From Solimonas soli DSM 21787 (GTDB lineage Bacteria > Pseudomonadota > Gammaproteobacteria > Nevskiales > Nevskiaceae), in contig NZ_AXDW01000001.1 of the NCBI RefSeq assembly GCF_000474945.1, forward strand, positions 496,001 to 560,000: a stretch of 64,000 bases of DNA, written 5' to 3'. Below are positions 15,645-28,926 of this stretch, in pieces (positions within the stretch are counted from its first letter, which is position 1; each line of letters starts with the position of its first letter). A program made the position numbers and the translations under genes. The notes below the pieces were generated by a model. That model searched no databases and was not told where the DNA came from. It saw only the letters and a list, made by a program, of their open reading frames with translations.

Positions 15645-16384
15645 ACGCGATCCATGCGGCTGGCCAGATGCAGATCGTGGGTGACGACGACGAGGCTGGT
15701 GCCGAGCTCGCGATTGAGCTCGAGCATCTGGTCGAACACGCGCTCGGCCGTCCTGGTATCGAGATTGCCGGTCGGCTCGTCGGCGAGCACACAGGCCGGC
15801 CGCGTCACCAGCGCGCGCGCCACGGCCGCGCGCTGGCGCTCGCCGCCCGACAGCTCGCCCGGCTTGTGCTGCAAACGCGCGCCGAGGCCGACGCGCGTCA
15901 GCAGATCGGTCGCGCGCTCCTGCGCTTCGCGCAGCGGCGTACGGCGGATCAGCAGCGGCATCGCCACGTTCTCGAGCGCCGTGAATTCCGGCAGCAGATG
16001 GTGGAACTGGTAGACGAAGCCGAGCGCCGCGTTGCGCAGGCGGCCGCGCGCCGCGTCGCTCAGCGCCGACATGTTCTCGCCGGCGACCCAGACCCCGCCC
16101 GCCGTCGGCGCATCGAGCCCGCCGAGGCAGTGCAGCAAGGTCGACTTGCCGCTGCCGCTGGCACCGACGATGGCGACGCGCTCGCCCCGGCCGATGCGCA
16201 GATCGATGTCCTTCAGCACCTCGAGCCGCAGACGGCCGTCGTCGAAGGTCTTGCCGAGCTGGGTCGCGCGAATGATGGCGCCGTCGCCGCTGCCCGCCTG
16301 TGCGTTACCACCACGCGAAGCGAATCCGCCGGCATCGAGTAGTGTGCTCGCTGCATCGGTTACTGCACCGGTCACGTCATTCAT
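15599..16384 (-). CDS. lolD: LolD, ATPase of the lipoprotein-releasing ABC transporter
   Basis: 261 aa. LolD powers release of outer-membrane lipoproteins from the inner membrane to LolA. Walker A is GASGSGKST, the signature is [15 protein letters not shown], and Walker B is [12 protein letters not shown]. The start at 16384 overlaps the lolC stop by 8 bp. An N-terminal extension of about 35 residues (Ala/Gly/Ser-rich) precedes the first ABC strand, longer than usual. MacB-type ATPases look similar, but the partner here is clearly LolC/E. Confidence 0.94.
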
Positions 16385-17624
16385 AACGGAGCGCCTCCGC
16401 CGGCTGCACGCGCGAGGCGCGCCAGGCGGGGTACAGGGTCGATACGAGGCCGAGCACCAGCGACAGGCTGCCGATGCGGATGACATCGGAGAGCTTCAGC
16501 TCCGAGGGCAGATCGCTGATGTAGTAGACGTCCGGCGCGAGGAACTGATGGTGGGTCAGCTGCTCGAGCAGCGGCACCAGGGTCTCGACATTGAGCGCCA
16601 GCAGGACGCCGAAGAAAACGCCGAAGAAGGTGCCGACGAAGCCGATGATCGAGCCCTGCACCATGAAGATCGCCATGATCGAGCGCGGCGTCGCGCCGAG
16701 CGTGCGCAGGATGGCGATGTCGGCCTGCTTGTCCTGCACGACCATGACCAGCGTCGAGACGATGTTGAAGGCGGCCACGCCGACGATCAGCGAGAGGATG
16801 ATGAACATCACCATCTTCTCGGTGGCCACGGCGCGGAAGAAGTTGGCATGGCTGCGTGTCCAGTCCGAAATGTAATAGATGCCGGGCAGCTGGTTGGCGA
16901 GGTCGCGCGCCACGCGCGGCGCCGCGAACAGGTCGTGGAGCTTGAGGCGCACGCCGGTCACGGAATCGCCCATGCGCAGCAGGGCCTGCGCATCCTGCAG
17001 GTTGATCAGCACCAGGCCGCGGTCGAACTCGTACATGCCGACGCGGAAGATGCCGCTGACCGTGAAGCGGCGGAAGCGCGGCAGCACGCCGGCCGGCGTC
17101 ACCGAGGCCTGCGGGATCATCAGGTCGATCTTGTCGCCGATCGTCGCGCCCAGCGATTCGGCGAGTTCCGAGCCGAGCACGATGTTGTAGGAGCCCGGCG
17201 TCAGCGACTCGAAGCTGCCGGCCTTCATGTGCTGGTCGATCTCCGAAACGCGGCCTTCCTCGGCCGGAATCACGCCGCGCAGCATGGTGCCGGACAGGTC
17301 GGAGCCGACCTTCACCATGCCTTCGCCCTCGATGTACGGCGCGACCGCCTCGATCTCCTTGTTCTGCTTCGCCAGCTTGGCAACGCCCGGCCAGTCTTCG
17401 AGGCCGCCGCGATAGGCCGAGATGGTCGCGTGCGAGGCCATGCCGAGAATGCGCGTGCGCAGCTCGCGCTCGAAGCCGTTCATCACCGACAGCACCGTGA
17501 TCAGCGCCGTCACGCCGATCGCGATGCCGGCCATCGACGCCGCCGAAATGAAGGAAATGAAGTGGTTGCGCCGCTTGGCGCGCGTGTAGCGCAGGCCGGC
17601 GAACAGCTCGTAGGGGTTACGCAT
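16377..17624 (-). CDS. lolC: LolC/LolE-family permease of the lipoprotein-releasing system
   Basis: 415 aa. One membrane helix lies near residues 20-45 ([23 protein letters not shown]). A large periplasmic domain is followed by three C-terminal helices and the closing [18 protein letters not shown], typical of LolC/E. The N-terminal [20 protein letters not shown] is the family start, which fixes the ATG at 17624. Only one such permease is present beside lolD, so it may be the single LolF-like permease found in some genera or pair with one elsewhere. Which of the two names applies cannot be settled from this window. Confidence 0.93.
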
Positions 17625-17699
17625 AAGTGGGCAATTGGACCACAAGGCCGACGATTCGTGCCAGCGAAGGACGGGCCGCCACGCAGAAAACTGACAAGA

Positions 17700-17817: not shown

Positions 17818-19566
17818 ATGCAGAACCTGTCACCGCGCCCGCTCGGCGCCGGCCTTCTCACCGCCTGCGCCTTCGTCGGCGCGTTCGCGCTCGCCGCGTG
17901 CAGCGACGACGACAACAACGACACGCCGGACAATGCCAAGGCCACCCTCTTCGCGCCCGTCGACGTCGCCACCACCGACGCCGCCAAGCGCCAGGTCTAC
18001 GGCACCGATTTCGCGACGGTCGACGGCGAGACGCGCGAGACCGGCTACGTGACGATCCTGCGCTCGGGCGAGCAGCGCGGCAGCAGCGCCGACCTGAACA
18101 CCTTCGGCCTGCAGCTCGACAAGCACATGCAGCCGATCCTGGCCGATGACGGATCGAGCGCCATTCTCGATTCGAACGACTTCTCGTCGATCCTCAAGGT
18201 CGGCCGCAAGCTGTTCGCGGTCTCGCAGTTCGAGAGCCAGCCGGGCGCCATGTACCTGACCGAACTGGCGCAGGACAAAGCGACCGGCAAGCTGTCGGCC
18301 ACCAAGACCACGGCCATCGACCTGTCCAGCATCCACGGCATCTGGAACCCCTGCGCGGGTTCGGTCACGCCGTGGAACACGCACCTCGGCTCCGAAGAGT
18401 ACGAGCCGGACGCCATCAATGGCGCCACCGGCCGCGTCAAGACCATGGTCCCCTACGGCGACACGGTGAATCCGTACTACTACGGTTTCCCGGTCGAAGT
18501 CGCGGTCAAGGAAGACGGCACGGCGACGCCGACCAAGCACTACTCGATGGGACGCTTCGCGCACGAGTTGTCATACGTGATGCCGGACCAGAAGACCGTC
18601 TATGAAACCGACGACGGCAGCAACGTCGGCTTCTTCCGCTATGTCGCCACCACCGCCGGCCAGCTGACCGGCGGCACGCTGTACGCCGCCAAGTGGACGC
18701 AGACCGGCACCAAGCCGGCCACTTCGCCGCTGGCCGCCGCCGACATCAGCTGGGTCGAGCTGGGCACCGCCACCGACGCCGAAGTCGAAACGCTGATCGA
18801 TGCCGGCACCAAGTTCACCGACATTTTCGAGGTTGGCACCGTCACCGCCGGCGCCTGCGCCGCCGGCTTCACCTACGTCGACGCCTCCGACGGCGACGCC
18901 GTGGTGCCGAAGTGCCTCAAGCTCAAGACCGGCATGGAGAAGGCCGCCGCCTTCCTCGAAACGCGCACTTACGCGGCGCTCAAGGGCGCGACCACCGAGT
19001 TCAAGAAGGAAGAAGGCATCACCTTCGACCCGGATGGCAAGAAGGTCTACGTGGCCTACAGCGACACCAGCGGCCAGATGTCCGACGCCAAGGGCGATAT
19101 CCAGGTCGCCAAGGAAAGCTGCGGCACGGTCTACGCCTATGACGTCGACGCCAACTACATGATCACCAAGGCCAGCGGCGTGCTGCGCGGCACCAGCACG
19201 ACCTACCCGGCCGAGAGTGTCTTCGCCGGCAACACCTGCGACGTGAACGGCATCGGCAACCCGGACAACATCAGCTTCATGCCCGGACAGAAGACGCTGC
19301 TGATCGGCGAGGATGCCTCGAGCGCGCACCAGAACGACGTGGTGTGGGCGTACAACGTCGAGGCCAACACCCTGACGCGCATCGCCTCGACGCCCTACGG
19401 CGCGGAAACGACCTCGCTGTACTACTACCCGGACGTCAACGACTTCGGCTACATCGTCGCCGTCGTGCAGCACCCGTACGGCGAAAGCGACCAGTCCAAG
19501 CTGGAGGACGCGGCCGACAAGCACTCGTATTTCGGCTACATCGGCGCCCTGGCGCCGCACCAGTAA
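17818..19566 (+). CDS. PhoX-family (DUF839) lipoprotein phosphatase-like protein
   Basis: 582 aa. The signal peptide ends in LAAC (Cys near residue 24), followed by an acidic Asp/Asn stretch, so a surface or periplasmic lipoprotein is expected. The body looks like the PhoX/DUF839 beta-propeller. It has GTHLGSEEYEPDA-like spacing around TPWNTHLGSEEYEPD, GRFAHELSYVMPDQKTVYETDDG, and a closing GNPDNISFMPGQKTLLIGEDA with HQNDVVWAYN. PhoX enzymes are calcium/iron alkaline phosphatases, but many DUF839 proteins are untested. A good ribosome site (AGGGAGT) lies 6 bp before the ATG. A terminator follows directly. Confidence 0.85.
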   Translation: MQNLSPRPLGAGLLTACAFVGAFALAACSDDDNNDTPDNAKATLFAPVDVATTDAAKRQVYGTDFATVDGETRETGYVTILRSGEQRGSSADLNTFGLQLDKHMQPILADDGSSAILDSNDFSSILKVGRKLFAVSQFESQPGAMYLTELAQDKATGKLSATKTTAIDLSSIHGIWNPCAGSVTPWNTHLGSEEYEPDAINGATGRVKTMVPYGDTVNPYYYGFPVEVAVKEDGTATPTKHYSMGRFAHELSYVMPDQKTVYETDDGSNVGFFRYVATTAGQLTGGTLYAAKWTQTGTKPATSPLAAADISWVELGTATDAEVETLIDAGTKFTDIFEVGTVTAGACAAGFTYVDASDGDAVVPKCLKLKTGMEKAAAFLETRTYAALKGATTEFKKEEGITFDPDGKKVYVAYSDTSGQMSDAKGDIQVAKESCGTVYAYDVDANYMITKASGVLRGTSTTYPAESVFAGNTCDVNGIGNPDNISFMPGQKTLLIGEDASSAHQNDVVWAYNVEANTLTRIASTPYGAETTSLYYYPDVNDFGYIVAVVQHPYGESDQSKLEDAADKHSYFGYIGALAPHQ

Positions 19567-19585
19567 GCATCATCGGGCCGCACCC

Positions 19586-19623
19586 GGTTCCGGCGCGTTC
19601 GCGCGCCGGAACCTTTTTGTTTT
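19586..19623 (+). terminator. Rho-independent terminator after the PhoX-family gene
   Basis: GGTTCCGGCGCG, loop TTCG, CGCGCCGGAACC is a perfect 12-bp stem, followed by TTTTTGTTTT. This is the clearest intrinsic terminator in the window. It ends only 8 bp before the ATG of the next plus-strand gene, leaving no room for a separate promoter after it. Confidence 0.95.
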
Positions 19624-19631
19624 ACGAATCC

Positions 19632-21350
19632 ATGTCGAACTCCCTGATCCCCGCCTCCCGACCCGCCGCAGCCGCGACGCTGCTCGCCACGCTCGTCATC
19701 GCCTGCCTGCTCGGCGCCTGCGAGCGGCGCGACGACAGTGGCGTCACGCTGCGCAGCAAGCCGGACGTCAGCCGCATCGCCAACATTCCGCCGCAGTGCT
19801 ACACGCGCACGCGGGATGCCGACGGCAAGGTGCAGAATCCCTGCTACGTCTGCCACGCCGACGCGCAGGAACCGAACTACCAGAGCCAGCCGGAGAACCA
19901 GCTGAGCTACGCCTTCCCTTCGCTGCAGCGCGACGGCAAGACACCGAACACCTGGGCCAATTTCTTCGTCGACCGCGGCGCCGCCATCGCGGCGATCGGC
20001 GACGACGAAGCCCTGCGCCATGTGCGCACCGACAACTACCGCGACGCCCGCGGCCGCATCGAACTGGTCGAACGCCTGACGCACCTGCCGAAGGCCTGGG
20101 ACGTCAACGGCGACGGCCGCTGGGGCGGCTATCTTCCCGACGCCGCCTTCCGCTTCGACGCGCAGGGCTTCGACCGCGACGCGAACGATCGGCCGACCGG
20201 CTGGCGCGCCTTCGCCTACTTCCCGTTTCCCGGCAGCTTCATGCCGACCAACGGCGCCTTCGACGACGTGCTGATCCGCCTGCCGGCCGCCTTCCGCGAA
20301 CGCGAGGACGGCACGCCGGACGAGACGGTCTACAAGATCAATCTGGCGATCGTCGAAAGCCTGGTGCGGCGCGCGGACATCGCCATCGACGCCAGCGACG
20401 AACGCGCGCTGGGCAGCGATCTCGACCGTGATGGCCGGCTCGCCAAGGCGACGCGCATCGTCTACGACTGGGCGCCGCTGCAGAAGCGCTTCATGTCCTA
20501 CGTCGGTCGCGCCCGGCTCGAGCAGGACGCCGGCCGCCTGCACGCCGCCGCCGGCCTGTTCCCCGAAGGCACGGAATTCCTGCACAGCGTGCGTTATCTC
20601 GACGTCGCCGCCGACGGCAGCGTGGTGCCGGCGCCGCGCATGAAGGAACTGCGCTACAGCCGCAAGCTGCGCTGGGTGTCGTATTCGGCGCTGCGCAACC
20701 AGGCGATCATCGAGACCAAGGAAGCGGCGCTGTCGCCGGACGAGCCCGAGCAATATTTCGGCGATCCGGAACGCGGCATGCAAAGCAAGCTCGGCTGGGC
20801 CTACCAGGGCTTCATCGAGGATGCGCGCGGCCGCCTGCGGCCGCAGACCCAGGAGGAATCGCAGTTCTGCCTCGGCTGCCACGGCGGCCTGTCGGCGACC
20901 GACGACACCGTGTTCTCGTTCTCGCGCAAGCTGCAGGGCGGCACGGCCCGCGGCTGGTACCACTGGGACGCGCAGCCGTTCCGCGCCCTGCCCGACCCGC
21001 TGCGGGCCGACGGCCAGCCCGAGTTCGCGACCTACCTGTACAACAACGCGGCGGGCGACGAATACCGCGCCAACGACGAGGTGCGGACGCGCTTCTTCGC
21101 CGCCGACGGCACGCCGCGTGCCGACGCCTTCGAAAAGCTGAAGACCGATCTGTCGACGCTGATGCTGCCGTCGCGCGAGCGCGCCCTGGCGCTCGACAAG
21201 GCCTACTGGCTGATCGTGCGCGAGCAGTCGTTCGCGCACGGCCGCGACGCCATCCTGCGGCCGGCGCACAACATGTGGCAGGAAGTCGAGCAGAACGCGC
21301 CGACCGGCATCGAAACGCCGCTGCCGGCGCCGCGTCTCGCCGTGCAATAA
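19632..21350 (+). CDS. Lipoprotein with two c-type haem-binding motifs, function unknown
   Basis: 572 aa. The signal peptide ends in LLGAC (Cys30), predicting a lipid anchor. Two CXXCH motifs are present: CYVCH at residues 71-75 and CLGCH at 413-417. Covalent attachment of two haems in the periplasm is therefore likely, a decahaem or di-haem peroxidase layout is not. Between them is a long region with repeated EF-hand-like Asp patterns (DVNGDGRWGGY, GSDLDRDGRLAKA). I recognise no named family. It follows the PhoX-family gene by 65 bp and a terminator, and has no obvious ribosome site. Confidence 0.75.
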   Translation: MSNSLIPASRPAAAATLLATLVIACLLGACERRDDSGVTLRSKPDVSRIANIPPQCYTRTRDADGKVQNPCYVCHADAQEPNYQSQPENQLSYAFPSLQRDGKTPNTWANFFVDRGAAIAAIGDDEALRHVRTDNYRDARGRIELVERLTHLPKAWDVNGDGRWGGYLPDAAFRFDAQGFDRDANDRPTGWRAFAYFPFPGSFMPTNGAFDDVLIRLPAAFREREDGTPDETVYKINLAIVESLVRRADIAIDASDERALGSDLDRDGRLAKATRIVYDWAPLQKRFMSYVGRARLEQDAGRLHAAAGLFPEGTEFLHSVRYLDVAADGSVVPAPRMKELRYSRKLRWVSYSALRNQAIIETKEAALSPDEPEQYFGDPERGMQSKLGWAYQGFIEDARGRLRPQTQEESQFCLGCHGGLSATDDTVFSFSRKLQGGTARGWYHWDAQPFRALPDPLRADGQPEFATYLYNNAAGDEYRANDEVRTRFFAADGTPRADAFEKLKTDLSTLMLPSRERALALDKAYWLIVREQSFAHGRDAILRPAHNMWQEVEQNAPTGIETPLPAPRLAVQ

Positions 21351-21400
21351 GGCCGCGGTCGCGCTGCGGAAACACCCGCAACGCTGGGTGAATCTCCCGA

Positions 21401-22462
21401 ATGGCTGTGCCCGGGGGCGGCGCGGAGAATCGGTCGCGAGCCGCCGCGGGGAAGGCGCGGGCGGCGCTCACGCCGCCGGAGGCCGCAGGGGTCCGCGGCC
21501 CTCGTCCGACTACAGCACAGGTGCGCGTGATCCAGCCCGATCCACCGGCGAGGCGAGTCGTCCGCTTCGACATCGACGTGACGCGGTTCATCGACGCCGA
21601 GGGCCAGCTCTGCGCGCCGCTGCCGGCCTTCGCACGCCAGTCGGGCACCCTGCGCGCGCTGTACGGCACCATGGTCGAGGCGCGCATCTTCGACAAGAAG
21701 GCGACCGCGCTGCAGCGTGCCGGCCAGCTCGGCGGCTATTCGCCGCGGCTCGGGTTCGAGGCGATCGGCACGGCGATCGGCGGCGCGCTGCGCGCCGACG
21801 ATCTGCTGTTGCCGGCGCATCGCGATGCGGCCGCGCAACTGCTGCGCGGCGCGGCGATGCAGGAGCTTTTCGCGTACTGGAGCGATCCGGCCGGCGAGCA
21901 GGATTCGCCCCTGCTGCCGGCCCTGGAACTGGCGCGCCGCAGCGCGCGCGGCGACGGACCGATCGCGCTGCTGAGCTGCGCCGACGGCGAGGCCGGCGTC
22001 GAGGAGGGCCTGCTGGCGGCGATGCACGCCAATCTGCCGCTGGTCGTCGTCGCCGCCAGCGTCGCGCGCACGGCGGCGAACGAGGCGCGCCGGCATCGCG
22101 CACCGCTGGCGCGGCGCGCCCTGGCCGCCGGCGTCCACGCCGAAGCGGTCGACGGCAACGACGTCATCGCCGTCCGTCACGTGCTCGATCTGGCCGTGGA
22201 GCGCGCGCGGCGCGGCGGCGGCCCCACCTTCGTCGAGGCCCTGACCTGGCAGCTCTACGAAGGCGGCGACGAAACGGCGCCGCGCAGCGCGGACGACCTG
22301 CGCGCCGCCTGGGAGCGCTGCCCGATCCGCCGTCTCAGGCGCTACATCGGCAGCCAGGGCCTGTGGTCGATCGAAGAGGAAGAAGCGCTGCTGATGCGCG
22401 CCGGCGAAAGCGCCGAAGTCGCCGCGCGCGGCTTTCTCGGCGCCTGCAGCGGCGCGCGCTGA
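21401..22462 (+). CDS. Divergent 2-oxoacid dehydrogenase E1-alpha homologue, probably not a normal TPP enzyme
   Basis: 353 aa. The N-terminal half matches PdhA/BkdA-type E1-alpha: RFDIDVTRFIDAEGQ, LPAFAR, LYGTMVEARIFDKKATALQRAGQLGGY, then LLPAHRDAAAQLLRGAAM. The cofactor half is altered. The usual GDG of the thiamine-diphosphate/Mg motif is ADG (SCADGEAGVEEG), the NN-x-WAIS strand is missing, and the preceding segment with the conserved His is shortened. No E1-beta, E2 or E3 gene is adjacent. The C-terminal region (FVEALTWQLYEGGDE) is family-like. The first 40 residues are low in complexity, so the real start may be GTG at 21521 or 21527. Confidence 0.7.
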   Translation: MAVPGGGAENRSRAAAGKARAALTPPEAAGVRGPRPTTAQVRVIQPDPPARRVVRFDIDVTRFIDAEGQLCAPLPAFARQSGTLRALYGTMVEARIFDKKATALQRAGQLGGYSPRLGFEAIGTAIGGALRADDLLLPAHRDAAAQLLRGAAMQELFAYWSDPAGEQDSPLLPALELARRSARGDGPIALLSCADGEAGVEEGLLAAMHANLPLVVVAASVARTAANEARRHRAPLARRALAAGVHAEAVDGNDVIAVRHVLDLAVERARRGGGPTFVEALTWQLYEGGDETAPRSADDLRAAWERCPIRRLRRYIGSQGLWSIEEEEALLMRAGESAEVAARGFLGACSGAR

Positions 22463-22568
22463 GCAAGGCCGATGCCCGCCGCTGAACGGCGGCTTGATGA
22501 ACCCTCGCCCGCCCTGGACCTCTAAGGCGTGGGAGTGCGTGCTCCCGACCGCCATGGAGGCACGAACG

Positions 22569-23024
22569 ATGAGCAAGCTCGAACAGCAGGATCGCGCGAA
22601 CCAGAGGTCCGAAGGCGGCATGTTCTATCCGACCGGCTATATCGTGGCCGGCTTCGCCTCGCCGGAATGCGCACGGGACGCTCTGCATCACCTGCAGGAA
22701 AGCGGCTTCGCCGAAGACGACATCACCCTGGTGAAAGCGGCGCAGATGGCGCGCGAAGCCGAGCACAACCTGGAGTCGCCCTCCTTGTTCGCGTCGATGG
22801 GCTCCAGCCTCCAGGTCCGGCAGAAGCAGCTCGAACTGGCGCGGCAGGGCTGGGACTTCCTGCTGATCGACGCCGGCTCGCAGGAGCGCGAGCGGCGCGC
22901 CGTGCAGGCGCTCAGCGGCTGCAAGGTCGGCTATGCGATCAAATACAAGCCGCTGATCATCGAAAACATCATGCCGGACGTGCCCGGCGAGAAGCGCGAG
23001 CCGCATCCGGCGCGGGTCCCCTGA
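22569..23024 (+). CDS. Small soluble protein of unknown function
   Basis: 151 aa with a good Shine-Dalgarno (GGAGG, about 10 bp before ATG 22569), which decides the start over longer in-frame options. No signal peptide or membrane helix. The opening VAGFASPECARDALHHLQESGFAEDDITLVKA resembles the ferredoxin-like repeat in general-stress proteins of the YflT/DUF1269 kind, where GF and DI(T) recur. That is a resemblance only. It is followed by a strong hairpin terminator shared with the convergent gene. Confidence 0.7.
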   Translation: MSKLEQQDRANQRSEGGMFYPTGYIVAGFASPECARDALHHLQESGFAEDDITLVKAAQMAREAEHNLESPSLFASMGSSLQVRQKQLELARQGWDFLLIDAGSQERERRAVQALSGCKVGYAIKYKPLIIENIMPDVPGEKREPHPARVP

Positions 23025-23030
23025 ATCGAC

Positions 23031-23065
23031 GAAGCAGGCCCGCGCGTCGCCGGCCTGCTTCCTTC
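23031..23065. terminator. Bidirectional hairpin between convergent genes
   Basis: GAAGCAGGCC and GGCCTGCTTC form a perfect 10-bp stem around an 11-base loop, followed by CTTC. It lies between the plus-strand gene ending at 23024 and the minus-strand gene ending at 23075. The T run is poor on both sides. Confidence 0.65.
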
Positions 23066-23074
23066 GCCCGCCGT

Positions 23075-23632
23075 TCAGCGCGCGCGATTCTTGCCGAACA
23101 CGCCGCCCAGCGTGACGCCGATGAAGTCGCTCTGTGAATTGAGATTGCCGTGCACGCCGAGCTCGAGCCCGCGCGTCGGGTAGAACAGCAGCTCGACCGG
23201 CACGCCGACGATCGGGCGCTGGCGATCATTGGCGACGTCGGTGAGACGACTCGCCCCGGCGAACAGGTAGGCCTTCGTCGAATACAGGGCCATGCCGATC
23301 TCGGCCGCGACTTCCTCGGCGGTATTGCTCGTGTAGTCGGCCATCCAGGCGGCGCGCAGGCGCGCTGCCGCGCGGCTGCCGAAGGTCAGCGCCGCATAGC
23401 CCTCCCAGCCGCCGACCTTCTGCGCATCGCTCTTCGTGCCGCCGGGCGGTGGCGCGTAATCCTCGCCATCGTAGTAGCCCGCGCCCACGCTGCCCCAAAT
23501 GTCCACCGCGGCGGCCGGCTCCGCCGGCGCCTGCCTGGCCGGCGGCGCGCCCTGCGTGGCGGCCGCAGCCTGCATCGTCAGCGCCGTGCCCAGCAGGCAG
23601 ACGCCCAGTCTCTTGCCAGCGTGTCGCAACAT
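23075..23632 (-). CDS. Exported beta-rich protein, possible small outer-membrane barrel
   Basis: 185 aa. A signal peptide (about residues 1-25, ending MQAAAA) and an Ala/Pro linker precede a domain of alternating amphipathic strands: WGSVGAGYYDG, GWEGYAALTFGSRAAARLRAAWMADYTSN, EIGMALYSTKAYLFAGASRLTD, LELGVHGNLNSQSDFIGVTLGGVFGK. This looks like an eight-strand porin-like fold, but the C-terminal residue is Arg, not the aromatic residue usual for Bam substrates. Function unknown. Confidence 0.65.
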   Translation of the reverse strand: MLRHAGKRLGVCLLGTALTMQAAAATQGAPPARQAPAEPAAAVDIWGSVGAGYYDGEDYAPPPGGTKSDAQKVGGWEGYAALTFGSRAAARLRAAWMADYTSNTAEEVAAEIGMALYSTKAYLFAGASRLTDVANDRQRPIVGVPVELLFYPTRGLELGVHGNLNSQSDFIGVTLGGVFGKNRAR

Positions 23633-24288: not shown

Positions 24289-25326
24289 ATGACCGCTCCG
24301 ACCACCGTCCTGCCCGCCGAATGGGCGCCGCAACGCGCCGTGCAGCTGACCTGGCCGCGGCCCGACGGCGACTTCGCGAAGCACTTCGTCGCCGTCGAAG
24401 ACACCTTCGTGGCGATCGCCGCGGCGATCACGCGCTTCGAGGATCTGATCATCGCCTGCGGCGACGATGTGCAGGAACTCGGCAGGAAGCTGCTCGCCGG
24501 CGGCGTCGACCCCAGGCGCGTCGACCTGTACCCGGCGCCGGCCAACGATGTCTGGGCACGCGATCACGGCCCGATCACGGTGTTTCGCGACGGCCGGCCG
24601 GTGCATCTGGATTTCGTCTTCAACGGCTGGGGCGGCAAGTTCGACGCCGCGCTCGACAACCAGCTGACGCGCGCGCTCGCCGCGCAGGACGCGTGGCAGG
24701 CGCCGGTCGAGACGCTCGACTTCGTGCTCGAAGGCGGCGGCATCGAATCCGACGGCCTCGGCACCCTGCTGACGACCGAGCGCTGCCTGCTGGCGCCGAC
24801 GCGCAATCCGCAGTTCGACAAGGCGCAGATCGAGGAGAAGCTCAAAGGCTGGTTCGGCGTGCAGCGCGTGCTGTGGCTGAAGCACGGCGATCTGATCGGC
24901 GACGACACCGACGGCCACATCGACACCATCGCGCGCTTCTGCGACGCGACGACGATCGCCTATCAGGCCTGCGACGACGAGCAGGATCCGCACTACGCCG
25001 ACCTGAAGGCGATGGAAGCCGAGCTGCAGGCCCTGCGCACCCTCGACGGCGAACCGTACAAGCTGGTGCCGCTGCCGCTGCCGCTGCCGGCCTTCGACGA
25101 AAACGGCAAGCGTCTGCCGGCCGGCTATCCGAATTTCCTGATCCTGAACGGCGCCGTGCTGGTGCCCACCTACGGCGATCCGAACGATGCGGTCGCGCTG
25201 CAGCGCCTCGCGCCCTGCTTCCCCGGCCGCGAGGTGCTCGGCATCGATTGCCGCGCGCTGATCGAACAGTACGGCAGCCTGCACTGCGTGACGATGCAGA
25301 TTCCGGGCGCGCCCCGAGAGGATTGA
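24289..25326 (+). CDS. aguA: Agmatine deiminase
   Basis: 345 aa. Converts agmatine to N-carbamoylputrescine in the arginine decarboxylase route to putrescine. Family features: PAEWAPQRAVQLTWPRPDGDF at the start, NDVWARDHGPITVFRDG, VLEGGGIESDGLGTLLTTERCLL, DDTDGHIDTIARF, and the catalytic cysteine near the C-terminus in GSLHCVTMQIP. It precedes aguB by 4 bp. Length is slightly below the plant and Pseudomonas enzymes (about 365), with no loss of motifs. Confidence 0.95.
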   Translation: MTAPTTVLPAEWAPQRAVQLTWPRPDGDFAKHFVAVEDTFVAIAAAITRFEDLIIACGDDVQELGRKLLAGGVDPRRVDLYPAPANDVWARDHGPITVFRDGRPVHLDFVFNGWGGKFDAALDNQLTRALAAQDAWQAPVETLDFVLEGGGIESDGLGTLLTTERCLLAPTRNPQFDKAQIEEKLKGWFGVQRVLWLKHGDLIGDDTDGHIDTIARFCDATTIAYQACDDEQDPHYADLKAMEAELQALRTLDGEPYKLVPLPLPLPAFDENGKRLPAGYPNFLILNGAVLVPTYGDPNDAVALQRLAPCFPGREVLGIDCRALIEQYGSLHCVTMQIPGAPRED

Positions 25327-25330
25327 ACCC

Positions 25331-26242
25331 ATGAGCAAGAACAAGACCCTGCGCGTCGGCGTCGTCCAGCAGCCGTGCACCAGCGAGCGCGACGTCAACC
25401 AGAAGATCTCCGAGGAAGGCATCCGCGCCGCGGCGGCCGGCGGCGCGAAGCTCGTGCTGTTGCAGGAGCTGCACACCTCGCTGTACTTCTGCCAGCACGA
25501 ATCGACCGAGCTGTTCGATCTCGCCGAGCCGATTCCCGGCCCGTCGAGCGAATGGCTGGGCGCGCTGGCCAAGGAGCTCGGCGTGGTCATTGTCGGCTCG
25601 CTGTTCGAGCGCCGCGCGCCGGGCCTGTATCACAACACCGCGGTCGTGCTGGAGAAGGACGGCAGCCTCGCCGGCGTCTACCGCAAGATGCACATCCCGG
25701 ACGATCCGGGCTACTACGAGAAGTTCTACTTCACGCCCGGCGATGCGAACACCGGGGCCGCCACCGGCGGCTTCACGCCGATCCAGACCAGCGTCGGCAA
25801 GCTCGGCGTGCTGGTCTGCTGGGACCAGTGGTATCCGGAAGGCGCGCGGCTGATGGCGCTGGCCGGCGCCGACCTGCTGCTCTATCCGACCGCGATCGGC
25901 TGGAACCCGCAGGACAGCGACGAGGAGCGCGCGCGCCAGCGCGATGCCTGGGTGACGATCCAGCGTGCGCACGCCGTCGCCAACGGCCTGCCGGTGATCG
26001 TCGCCAACCGCGTCGGCTTCGAGCCGGACCCGAGCGGCCAGTGGCCGGGCTCGCAGTTCTGGGGCCACAGCTTCATCGCCGGCCCGCAGGGCGAGTTCAT
26101 CGCCAAGGCCGGCGAGAAGGCCGACGTGCTGCTCGCCGACGTCGACCTCGAACGCAGCGAGAACGTGCGCCGCTGGTGGCCGTTCCTGCGTGACCGTCGT
26201 ATCGACGCCTATGGCGATCTGACCAGGCGCTTCCGCGACTGA
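25331..26242 (+). CDS. aguB: N-carbamoylputrescine amidase
   Basis: 303 aa. A nitrilase-superfamily hydrolase that makes putrescine, CO2 and ammonia from the AguA product. The Glu-Lys-Cys triad is visible in LLQELHTSLYF (Glu), YRKMHIPDDPGYYEKFYFTPGD (Lys) and LGVLVCWDQWYPE (Cys). The DPGYYEKFYF and DQWYPE strings are typical of this branch. The ATG lies 4 bp after aguA, and the pair forms one transcription unit. Confidence 0.95.
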   Translation: MSKNKTLRVGVVQQPCTSERDVNQKISEEGIRAAAAGGAKLVLLQELHTSLYFCQHESTELFDLAEPIPGPSSEWLGALAKELGVVIVGSLFERRAPGLYHNTAVVLEKDGSLAGVYRKMHIPDDPGYYEKFYFTPGDANTGAATGGFTPIQTSVGKLGVLVCWDQWYPEGARLMALAGADLLLYPTAIGWNPQDSDEERARQRDAWVTIQRAHAVANGLPVIVANRVGFEPDPSGQWPGSQFWGHSFIAGPQGEFIAKAGEKADVLLADVDLERSENVRRWWPFLRDRRIDAYGDLTRRFRD

Positions 26243-26517: not shown

Positions 26518-27660
26518 ATGACCACTTCCTCCTCCGAACTCGAACTCTTCCGCGACACGGTCCGCAAATTTCTCGCCGACAAGGTCGAGCCGCATTACGA
26601 GAAATGGGAAAAGGCCGGCATCTTCCCCAAGGAGCTCTACCTGCAACTCGGCGAAGCCGGCCTGCTCTGCGTCGACCAGCCCGAGGAGTACGGCGGCATC
26701 GGCGCACCGTTCGAGTTCTCCTGCGTGATCGTCGAGGAAGTCGCGCGCATGGGTTTCCTCGCGCTGGCCTCGAACCTCACCGTGCATTCGGACATCGCCG
26801 CGCCGTACATCCTGCATCTGGGCAGCGAGGCGCAGAAGCGGAAGTATCTGCCGCGCATGGCCAGCGGCGAATGCATCGGCGCGATCGGCATGACCGAACC
26901 GGGCGCCGGCTCCGACCTGCAGGGCATGAAGACCAGCGCGACGCCGGACGGCGACGACTACCTCATCAACGGCTCGAAGACCTTCATCACCAACGGCCAG
27001 CACGCCGGCGTCGTCGTGCTCGCGACCAAGACCGATCCGAAAGCCGGCGCCAAGGGCACGACCCTGTTCACCGTCGACACCTCGCTGCCCGGCTTCAAGC
27101 GCGGCCGCAATCTCGACAAGATCGGCCTGCACGCGGCCGATACTTCCGAACTGTTCTTCGACAACCTGCGCATCGGCAAGGACGAAGTGCTCGGCCGCCT
27201 CGGCGGCGGTTTCGGCCATCTGATCGACGAGCTGCCGCGCGAACGCCTCGTGCTCGCCGTGTCGGCCGTGGCCCATGCGCAGGGCGCGCTCGAGAAGACC
27301 ATCGAGTACGTGACGACGCGCAAGGCCTTCGGCCAGCCGATCGCCGCGTTCCAGAACACACGCTTCGAACTGGCGAAGATCAAGACCGACATCGAAGTGC
27401 ACCGCGCCTACATGGAGAAGTGCACGGCGCTGTACGCCGAAGGCAAGATGGATGTGCCGACGGCGGCGATGATCAAGCTCGCCACCACCGAGATGGAAGG
27501 CCGCGTCACCGATGCCTGCCTGCAGCTGTTCGGCGGCTACGGCTACATGACCGAGTACCCGATCTCGCGCTACTTCATCGACGCGCGCATCCAGCGCATC
27601 TACGGCGGCACGTCGGAGATCATGAAGGAAGTCATCGCGCGCGCGCTGGTCGGGCGCTGA
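26518..27660 (+). CDS. Acyl-CoA dehydrogenase, long-chain (LCAD/IVD-like) type
   Basis: 380 aa. FAD enzyme for the first step of beta-oxidation. Signatures: IGMTEPGAGSDLQGMKTSA, NGSKTFITNGQHA, RKAFGQPIAAFQNTRFELA, QLFGGYGYMTEYPISRYFIDARIQRIYGGTSEIMKEVIAR. The short-chain/MCAD catalytic Glu in YEGT is Gly here, as in LCAD. The LCAD/IVD-type base would be Glu259 in ALEKTIEYV, which is present. It is followed after 114 bp by a close paralogue. Chain-length preference is inferred from the motif only. Confidence 0.93.
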   Translation: MTTSSSELELFRDTVRKFLADKVEPHYEKWEKAGIFPKELYLQLGEAGLLCVDQPEEYGGIGAPFEFSCVIVEEVARMGFLALASNLTVHSDIAAPYILHLGSEAQKRKYLPRMASGECIGAIGMTEPGAGSDLQGMKTSATPDGDDYLINGSKTFITNGQHAGVVVLATKTDPKAGAKGTTLFTVDTSLPGFKRGRNLDKIGLHAADTSELFFDNLRIGKDEVLGRLGGGFGHLIDELPRERLVLAVSAVAHAQGALEKTIEYVTTRKAFGQPIAAFQNTRFELAKIKTDIEVHRAYMEKCTALYAEGKMDVPTAAMIKLATTEMEGRVTDACLQLFGGYGYMTEYPISRYFIDARIQRIYGGTSEIMKEVIARALVGR

Positions 27661-27774
27661 GGCCGCGGAATCGGCCGGCGCAAGGCGGCGCCGGTCTACT
27701 GCGATTCAGGGAGGCGGCGCCTGCCTTGCTGCCGGACCATTTGCGCCTGCCCTTACGGACGATGCCTGACCGCC

Positions 27775-28926
27775 ATGACCGCCGCCCAACCGATCGAAGC
27801 CGAACTCACCGCCTGGCGCGACACCGTGCGCCGCTTCCTCGCCGACGAAGTCGCGCCGCATTACGAGAAGTGGGAGAAGGCCGGCATCCTGCCGCGCGAG
27901 CTGTATCTGAAGCTCGGCGCCGCCGGCCTGCTCTGCGTCGACGCGCCCGACGAGTACGGCGGCAGCGGCGCGCCGCTGGAATTCGCCTTCGCGATCCACG
28001 AGGAAAGCGCCCGGCTCGGCTACATGTCGCTGTGCTCGAACATGATGATGCACTCCGACATCGTCGCGCCGTACATCCTGCATCTCGGCAGCGAAGCGCA
28101 GCGCCGGAAATACCTGCCGAGGATGGCGAGCGGCGAATGCTTCGGCGCGCTGGCGATGACCGAGCCCGGCGCCGGCTCCGATCTGCAGGCGATCCGCACC
28201 ACGGCGACCCCGGACGGCGACGGCTGGCGCCTCAACGGCTCGAAGATCTTCATCACCAACGGCCAGCACTGCGGCGTCGTGATCGTCGCCGCCAAGACCG
28301 ATCCGAAAGCCGGCGCCAGGGGCACCTCGCTGTTCCTCGTCGATGCCGACCTGCCCGGCTTCAAGCGCGGCCGCAATCTCGACAAGATCGGCATGCACGC
28401 CGCCGACACCTCCGAGCTGTTTTTCGACAACGTGCCGCTCGCGCCCGACAGCCTGCTCGGCCGCACCGGCGGCGGCTTCGGCCATCTGATCGACGAGTTG
28501 CCGCGCGAGCGCCTGATGCTCGCGGTCGCCGCCGTCGCGCACGCCGAAGGCGCGCTGGAACGCACCGTCGAATACGTGACGACACGCAAGGCCTTCGGCG
28601 CGCCGGTCGCGAGCTTTCAGAACACGCGCTTCGAACTCGCGAAGATCAAGACCGACATCGAGATCCACCGCGCCTACTACGAGAAGTGCCGCGCGCTGTA
28701 CGCGCAGGGCAAGCTCGGCGTGACCGAGGCGGCGATCATCAAGCTGGCGACCAGCGAAATGGAGGGCCGCGTCGTCGACGCCTGCCTGCAGCTGTTCGGC
28801 GGCTACGGCTACATGAGCGAGTATCCGATCTCGCGCTACTGGACCGACGCGCGCATCCAGCGCATCTACGGCGGCAGCAACGAGATCATGAAGGAAGTGA
28901 TCGCGCGGTCGCTGGTCGGCCGCTGA
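27775..28926 (+). CDS. Acyl-CoA dehydrogenase, paralogue of the preceding gene
   Basis: 383 aa, closely similar over its whole length to the gene just upstream; HYEKWEKAGI, LHLGSEAQRRKYLPRMASGEC and GRNLDKIG are shared. It keeps the same motif set: MTEPGAGSDLQAI, TRKAFGAPVASFQNTRFELAKI, ALERTVEYV with the LCAD-type Glu, and RIYGGSNEIMKEVIAR. Tandem duplication followed by divergence is the simplest reading, probably to widen substrate range. It probably shares a transcript with the first copy. Confidence 0.93.
   Translation: MTAAQPIEAELTAWRDTVRRFLADEVAPHYEKWEKAGILPRELYLKLGAAGLLCVDAPDEYGGSGAPLEFAFAIHEESARLGYMSLCSNMMMHSDIVAPYILHLGSEAQRRKYLPRMASGECFGALAMTEPGAGSDLQAIRTTATPDGDGWRLNGSKIFITNGQHCGVVIVAAKTDPKAGARGTSLFLVDADLPGFKRGRNLDKIGMHAADTSELFFDNVPLAPDSLLGRTGGGFGHLIDELPRERLMLAVAAVAHAEGALERTVEYVTTRKAFGAPVASFQNTRFELAKIKTDIEIHRAYYEKCRALYAQGKLGVTEAAIIKLATSEMEGRVVDACLQLFGGYGYMSEYPISRYWTDARIQRIYGGSNEIMKEVIARSLVGR

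Follow-up and report, generated by a model that had tools for sequence, protein, structure and literature searches.

What could keep an E1-alpha gene in a genome when the genes for its partner subunits are absent from its side and most of its cofactor-binding residues are lost? The question is raised by Solimonas soli DSM 21787, in a stretch of 64,000 nucleotides (positions 496,001 to 560,000 of its contig) that we refer to as the window. We think it likely that the locus as a whole is best explained as an orphan E1-alpha that lacks its thiamine diphosphate (ThDP) and Mg motifs and its C-terminal tail, and is maintained by selection; more tentatively, it may serve as a scaffold or regulator independent of E1-beta.

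The gene and its start

The open reading frame at 21401-22462 on the forward strand is a genuine gene encoding an E1-alpha homolog. Its product scores 83.1 bits against Pfam E1_dh (PF00676; cut-off 22, E 2.2e-23) and matches the NCBIfam equivalog for pyruvate dehydrogenase E1-alpha, TIGR03181, at E 2e-51, with 174.9 bits against a cut-off of 411.35; the canonical E1-alpha of a congener, G010, reaches 429.9 bits. The initial annotation had correctly recognized this kinship but had confined it to the first 160 residues, which is too narrow, as the C-terminal part is equally clear in the Pfam match and the alignment. It had also described an intact frame of 353 codons; the frame is open, but translation probably begins at GTG 21527 and yields 311 amino acids, because the upstream DNA is similar in S. 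flava but lies there in a different reading frame and because a canonical frame such as that of G023 starts near the corresponding place. This start is also consistent with the S. flava and S. variicoloris homologs. Three further E1-alpha genes of the same genome are 23-33% identical to the protein over the matched pieces. Residue n of the protein lies at 21527+3(n-1).

21401..21526, forward strand: in-frame upstream extension, probably untranslated, with similar S. flava DNA in another frame
21527..22462, forward strand: coding sequence of the pseudo-E1-alpha, 311 amino acids from the probable GTG start, Pfam E1_dh

Several neighboring genes vary within the genus. Adjoining the gene, 22572-23024 (forward strand) encodes a 150-amino-acid protein with a weak, below-cut-off likeness to YflT; it occurs in 3 of the 11 Solimonas genomes, adjacent in the window and in S. 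terrae and on another contig in G010. At 17818-21350 (forward strand), a PhoX-like gene is followed by one whose product has CxxCH-like motifs and matches cytochrome P460 below threshold; in S. flava this pair is replaced by relatives of a G010 gene pair, with only small remnants of both. Two tandem genes at 26518-28926 (forward strand), presumably acyl-CoA dehydrogenase-like, are about 77% identical to each other, and only one is on the fetched S. flava stretch.

Distribution in the genus and family

The degenerate form is present in 4 of the 11 Solimonas genomes, namely, the window genome, S. flava DSM 18980, S. variicoloris DSM 15731, and S. terrae KIS83-12, and its frame is open in all four. 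Identity to the window protein is 57-58% for S. flava and S. variicoloris and 43% for S. terrae. Intact homologs with the same altered motif thus exist in three other species, which answers the search proposed in the initial annotation. An assembly artifact was rejected, as the same form recurs in three separately named isolate assemblies. Within the genus, G010 carries a canonical E1-alpha, and six genomes, G001 among them, have no copy at all.

Across the family Nevskiaceae, to which the genus belongs, a match at an E value of 1e-40 or better was obtained in 26 of 58 genomes. Twenty-five of these were tabulated: in the four Solimonas proteins the motifs are missing, and the other 21 show GDG, NNxWAI, the H-TTADDA segment, and YR; the remaining match, in G031, is canonical in the alignment. 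The motifs are thus intact in all 22 other family members detected and lost in all four degenerate proteins. A scan of named genomes added 17 loci, all with the Mg-ligand Asn, and by eye 16 of them have GDG and one has GEG.

In the E1-alpha tree, the four degenerate proteins form one clade with support of 100, and the attachment of this clade among the canonical copies is weakly supported (31-57). A species tree from up to five proteins, with 16-20 of 20 genomes per protein and not every genome having all five, places the window genome, S. flava, S. variicoloris, S. terrae, and G001 in one clade (support 100), apart from G010.

The remnant of an operon

In all 13 canonical loci fetched, E1-alpha is followed by E1-beta and then E2 (one E2 is cut by a contig end). 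The cognate partners that a functional E1-alpha would have are encoded behind none of the four degenerate genes, and tblastn at E 1e-4 found no trace of E1-beta or E2 at these four loci. In each of them, E1-alpha stands between the same flanks as the canonical operon. The left-flank label lolC, like lolD and comEC below, is our assumption.

16377..17645, reverse strand: gene that we take to be lolC, flanking the ancestral operon site on the left and included in the fetched stretch of 10 of the 13 canonical loci
24289..26242, forward strand: aguA- and aguB-like genes by family matches, flanking the ancestral operon site on the right, aguA being included in the fetched stretch of 7 of the 13 canonical loci

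As judged from this comparison of sequences, an E1-alpha/E1-beta/E2 operon for a 2-oxoacid dehydrogenase, with a TIGR03181-type E1-alpha, once stood at this site, and the pseudo-E1-alpha is its in-place remnant. In the five-species Solimonas clade, E1-beta and E2 are gone, and four of the five species retain E1-alpha. The simplest history is a single loss of the partners and disarming of E1-alpha on the stem of the clade, followed by loss of the gene in G001, which has no copy and in which the gene is thus dispensable. Loss of the partners from the same place also explains the orphan status. The initial annotation was right that E1-beta, E2, and E3 are absent nearby: searches of the genome with operon-type E1-beta and E2 (E value of at most 1e-10) and for E3 (TIGR01350) gave no match within the window interval, C1:496001-560000.

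An operon-type E1-beta is found in only one of the 11 genus genomes, G010; the best match is 45-47% identical in nine others, and G009 has none. The window genome has three such matches (C10:142561, C1:158536, and C1:177186), 42-46% identical to the operon type. Relocation of the partner genes was rejected, since the best E1-beta of the genome is 46% identical to that of G010, compared with 68-83% for the 12 other canonical operon copies. Import of E1-alpha from elsewhere was likewise rejected, since the gene occupies the ancestral operon site, the exact tree attachment having support of 31-57. In the remaining Solimonas genomes the site differs: lolC lies within 0.5-0.8 kb of aguA in G002, G005, and G009, with E1-alpha, E1-beta, and E2 all absent, and G001, G003, and G004 have other genes there and no E1-alpha.

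Loss of the cofactor site

In human E1, Mg is described as held by Asp167, Asn196, and Tyr198 of the alpha subunit (PMC6168537). The account of the Geobacillus stearothermophilus E1 in PMC2663715 ties an inner loop with D173, N202, and Q200 to Mg and the diphosphate and has H271 contacting the cofactor. We aligned the four degenerate proteins with 23 canonical ones (22 of the family plus G040 of the order) and placed D173, D180, N202, and H271 of the G. stearothermophilus numbering by counting along the alignment.

21881..22096, forward strand: degenerate ThDP core, residues 119-190, with a missing segment, ADG at 21980-21988, and the D180 and N202 equivalents lost
22253..22285, forward strand: former outer-loop segment L243-R253, by alignment without the active-site His (role of His271 as given in PMC2663715)
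22286..22417, forward strand: conserved C-terminal helices, residues 254-297, with newly fixed L258, R259, R272, S276, L289, G293, and E294

All four degenerate proteins lack Tyr98 of the YR motif, the Mg-ligand Asn, and the aligned active-site His; also lost are the first Gly of GDG, the D180 and N202 equivalents, and most of the inner-loop motif. In place of the GDG...N motif of a functional E1-alpha they have ADG, DDA, or DDG, with Asn at neither N position in any of the four; the ADG first noted from the window is indeed there. The outer-loop His of a functional E1-alpha is replaced by a gap or Arg at the aligned column in all four. The window protein has no His anywhere in this segment, and S. 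flava, S. variicoloris, and S. terrae each have a His displaced by one or a few positions, which leaves the alignment of this residue uncertain in those three species.

Two details of the initial annotation stood only in part. It had reported the NN-x-WAIS strand as absent: the residues are gone, but a strand is still predicted there (residues 172-180 of the AlphaFold2 model). It had also described the His segment as shortened, which is true of the window protein (10 residues versus 13 in canonical proteins) but amounts to a single residue in S. flava and S. variicoloris (12 each) and is reversed in S. terrae (14). Since the length differs among the four, the shared feature is loss of the aligned His and not shortening. 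Larger losses had gone unremarked: the span from Trp118 to Asp153 is 35-40 residues in the degenerate proteins against 53-54 in canonical ones, a loss of 13-19, and 42-45 residues follow Arg269 against a canonical median of 75, a loss of about 30 at the C terminus.

The losses are distributed unevenly. Of 121 columns conserved in at least 95% of the 23 canonical sequences, the degenerate proteins all retain 44 and all lack 41, and the other 36 vary among the four. Residues 1-118 hold 19 kept and 5 lost positions, residues 119-190 hold 3 and 19, residues 196-297 hold 22 and 10, and the C-terminal tail holds 0 and 7. In addition, 13 positions are newly fixed in the degenerate clade, 7 of them in the C-terminal helices; these represent three lineages, as the S. 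flava and S. variicoloris proteins are near-identical.

What remains invites the idea of a pocket remodeled to serve a different ligand or a different reaction, with Asp153 (the Asp of GDG, equivalent to D173) and Arg99 holding a phosphate-bearing metabolite that has no thiamine part. Each of the two is retained by all four degenerate proteins and by at least 95% of the 23 canonical ones, so some ligand binding is conceivable. Nevertheless, we regard such a pocket as improbable: keeping these two is unremarkable among the 44 residues so kept, and the neighboring loops are relaxed and differ between species. The protein is likely unable to bind ThDP and would be a catalytically dead pseudoenzyme with an E1-alpha fold.

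Selection on the degenerate gene

Rates were estimated with a codon model of the GY type with F3x4 frequencies, and 2dlnL was taken against dN/dS of 1. Purifying selection acts on the degenerate E1-alpha overall, one internal branch excepted. The pair S. flava-S. variicoloris gives dN/dS of 0.096 (2dlnL 46.4), in a range of control genes for the same pair that runs from lolC (0.021) and aguA (0.048) through comEC (0.098) and lolD (0.126) to hyp123 (0.213). The four-species value is 0.180 (2dlnL 166.1), the part of it that concerns S. terrae being rough because of that species' long branch (2.0 neutral substitutions per site), and the window tip branch gives 0.223 (2dlnL 11.6); all three values are significantly below 1. 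The exception is the stem of S. flava and S. variicoloris, at 0.474 and inseparable from 1 (2dlnL 0.8).

The constrained regions are the N- and C-terminal parts, and the cofactor core is relaxed. By region, dN/dS is 0.148 in the N-terminal part, 0.350 in the center, 0.100 in the C-terminal part, and 0.482 in the C-terminal tail, the last not significant. Three classes fit better than one (2dlnL 50.8), with 0.134 for the N- and C-terminal parts together and 0.362 for the center (alignment columns 119-205); a Fisher test gave a corrected p of 0.018, and the likelihood test is preferred. Four groups of canonical genes have 0.029-0.107 in the center, 0.062-0.237 in the N-terminal part, and 0.063-0.119 in the C-terminal part, four-taxon trees being assumed for two canonical quartets. 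Between S. flava and S. variicoloris, columns 206-300 differ by 8 synonymous and 0 nonsynonymous codon changes.

The view that the gene is "not simply decaying" had been drawn from the intact frame. That argument is weak, because neutral simulation predicts only 0.5-6.5 stops, depending on lineage, distance, and base composition, and has little power at this GC content; the dN/dS values, however, uphold the conclusion. A dying gene, a passive remnant that merely remains unbroken, would suit the fast evolution, the absence of a copy in G001, the one branch not separable from 1, and the scant force of missing stops at high GC. We nevertheless hold it to be very improbable, given a rate in the most recent pair equal to that of comEC, the lack of nonsynonymous change in columns 206-300, the window tip value, and four open frames out of four. 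On sequence grounds the proposal of a pseudoenzyme holds, because homologs with the altered motif exist and purifying selection acts overall: catalytic residues are lost and the gene is kept by selection. Since the cofactor residues are mostly lost and yet the gene is selected like that of a working protein, the subunit probably has a new job.

An upstream conserved block

21375..21437, forward strand: conserved leader block about 90-150 bp before the start, possibly a promoter or operator, 82.5% identical to S. flava

The identity to S. flava extends over 63 bp. At the corresponding position S. terrae shows a 38-bp match (E 0.004) that is no stronger than stray hits elsewhere, on two other stretches; the G001 stretch, which is without the gene, shows none. 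The block is possibly a promoter or operator, and a scan of 21300-23200 turned up no consensus sigma-70 promoter. A riboswitch was rejected: Rfam at permissive thresholds gave no family at the leader, and the predicted folds of the window (z 1.43) and S. terrae (z -0.14) are no better than shuffles, with that of S. flava better (z -2.26). Elsewhere in the stretch, Rfam gave three weak matches, all far below gathering scores. A genus-wide search with a leader pattern fitted to the window says little about absence elsewhere, as it misses the block of S. flava itself through a one-base indel. In S. flava (L036, 9455-9634), 180 bp over the leader and gene start are identical to S. variicoloris, between surrounding aligned segments of 93-96% identity, and contain a GC-rich inverted repeat.

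Fold and possible function

With 18 sequences, AlphaFold2 reached a pLDDT of 84.1 and a pTM of 0.87 on the window protein, and a pLDDT of 78.6 and a pTM of 0.85 on that of S. terrae. The window protein is predicted to keep the E1-alpha fold over its whole length. The best solved-structure matches of the window model are E1-alpha chains, such as 1w85_G (Foldseek E 4.7e-19, TM 0.81), to which it aligns over 302 of 311 residues (Z 32.8, rmsd 2.9).

As to mechanism, we tentatively favor a protein that does its work without E1-beta, either as a stable scaffold or as a binding protein with a regulatory role. E1-beta and E2 were lost, E1-alpha stayed, and its ThDP site was dismantled, leaving a protein that would act independently of E1-beta. 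The functional surface would be formed by the C-terminal helices together with the helical part at the N terminus, regions in which amino acid changes are rare and new residues are fixed, and the cofactor core would survive mainly as structural filling. The choice of an E1-beta-independent scaffold is a guess that rests on where constraint lies. Somewhat more speculatively, the protein may be the founder of a new noncatalytic Solimonas family, acting as an independent scaffold or regulator through its newly fixed C-terminal helical face and having its own leader block.

Docking of the pseudo-E1-alpha on a surviving E1-beta, by which it would regulate or titrate the complex as the inactive subunit of a mixed E1 tetramer, seems unlikely. 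The genome has lost the cognate E1-beta, to which its surviving ones are only 42-46% identical, and the relaxed part of the protein is the core around the cofactor, which E1-alpha shares with E1-beta; still, the predicted fold, the three E1-beta genes elsewhere in the genome, and the 19 N-terminal and 22 C-terminal conserved residues kept in all four would accord with docking.

Relation to known systems

The pseudo-E1-alpha shares ancestry, overall fold, and kept residues such as VDGND with the heterotetrameric pyruvate/branched-chain E1-alpha (TIGR03181, PF00676; 1w85, 3dva, and 1umb). It differs in lacking the Mg-ligand Asn, the aligned His, the inner-loop motif, and the C-terminal tail, in its shortened core, and in having no adjoining E1-beta or E2 genes. 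The E3-binding protein (PDHX) of mammalian pyruvate dehydrogenase, a dead E2 kept for a structural role, is likewise a catalytically dead subunit of a 2-oxoacid dehydrogenase, but PDHX stays in its complex, whereas here the genes of the complex are gone. Pseudoenzymes are often studied as duplicates alongside a working copy. Human TKTL1, as modeled by transketolase delta-38, is likewise a relative of ThDP enzymes without a block of its active site; delta-38 is described as folding without specific thiamin binding or reaction (PMC3485151). Its status is disputed, as a modeling study makes the case for TKTL1 as a functional transketolase (PMC6334435). TKTL1 belongs to another ThDP subfamily and is a homodimer, whereas the loss in the pseudo-E1-alpha accompanies loss of partner subunits. 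Among the matches listed from open-licence PMC papers, titles and abstract openings gave no report of an E1-alpha pseudoenzyme or of this protein.

Not every E1_dh match, then, merits annotation as pyruvate dehydrogenase. The steps can be read within one genus, from the full operon in G010, through the orphaned and disarmed subunit in four species, to no copy in G001 and five others, making Solimonas a tractable case of how a subunit may gain a new role once its complex is lost.
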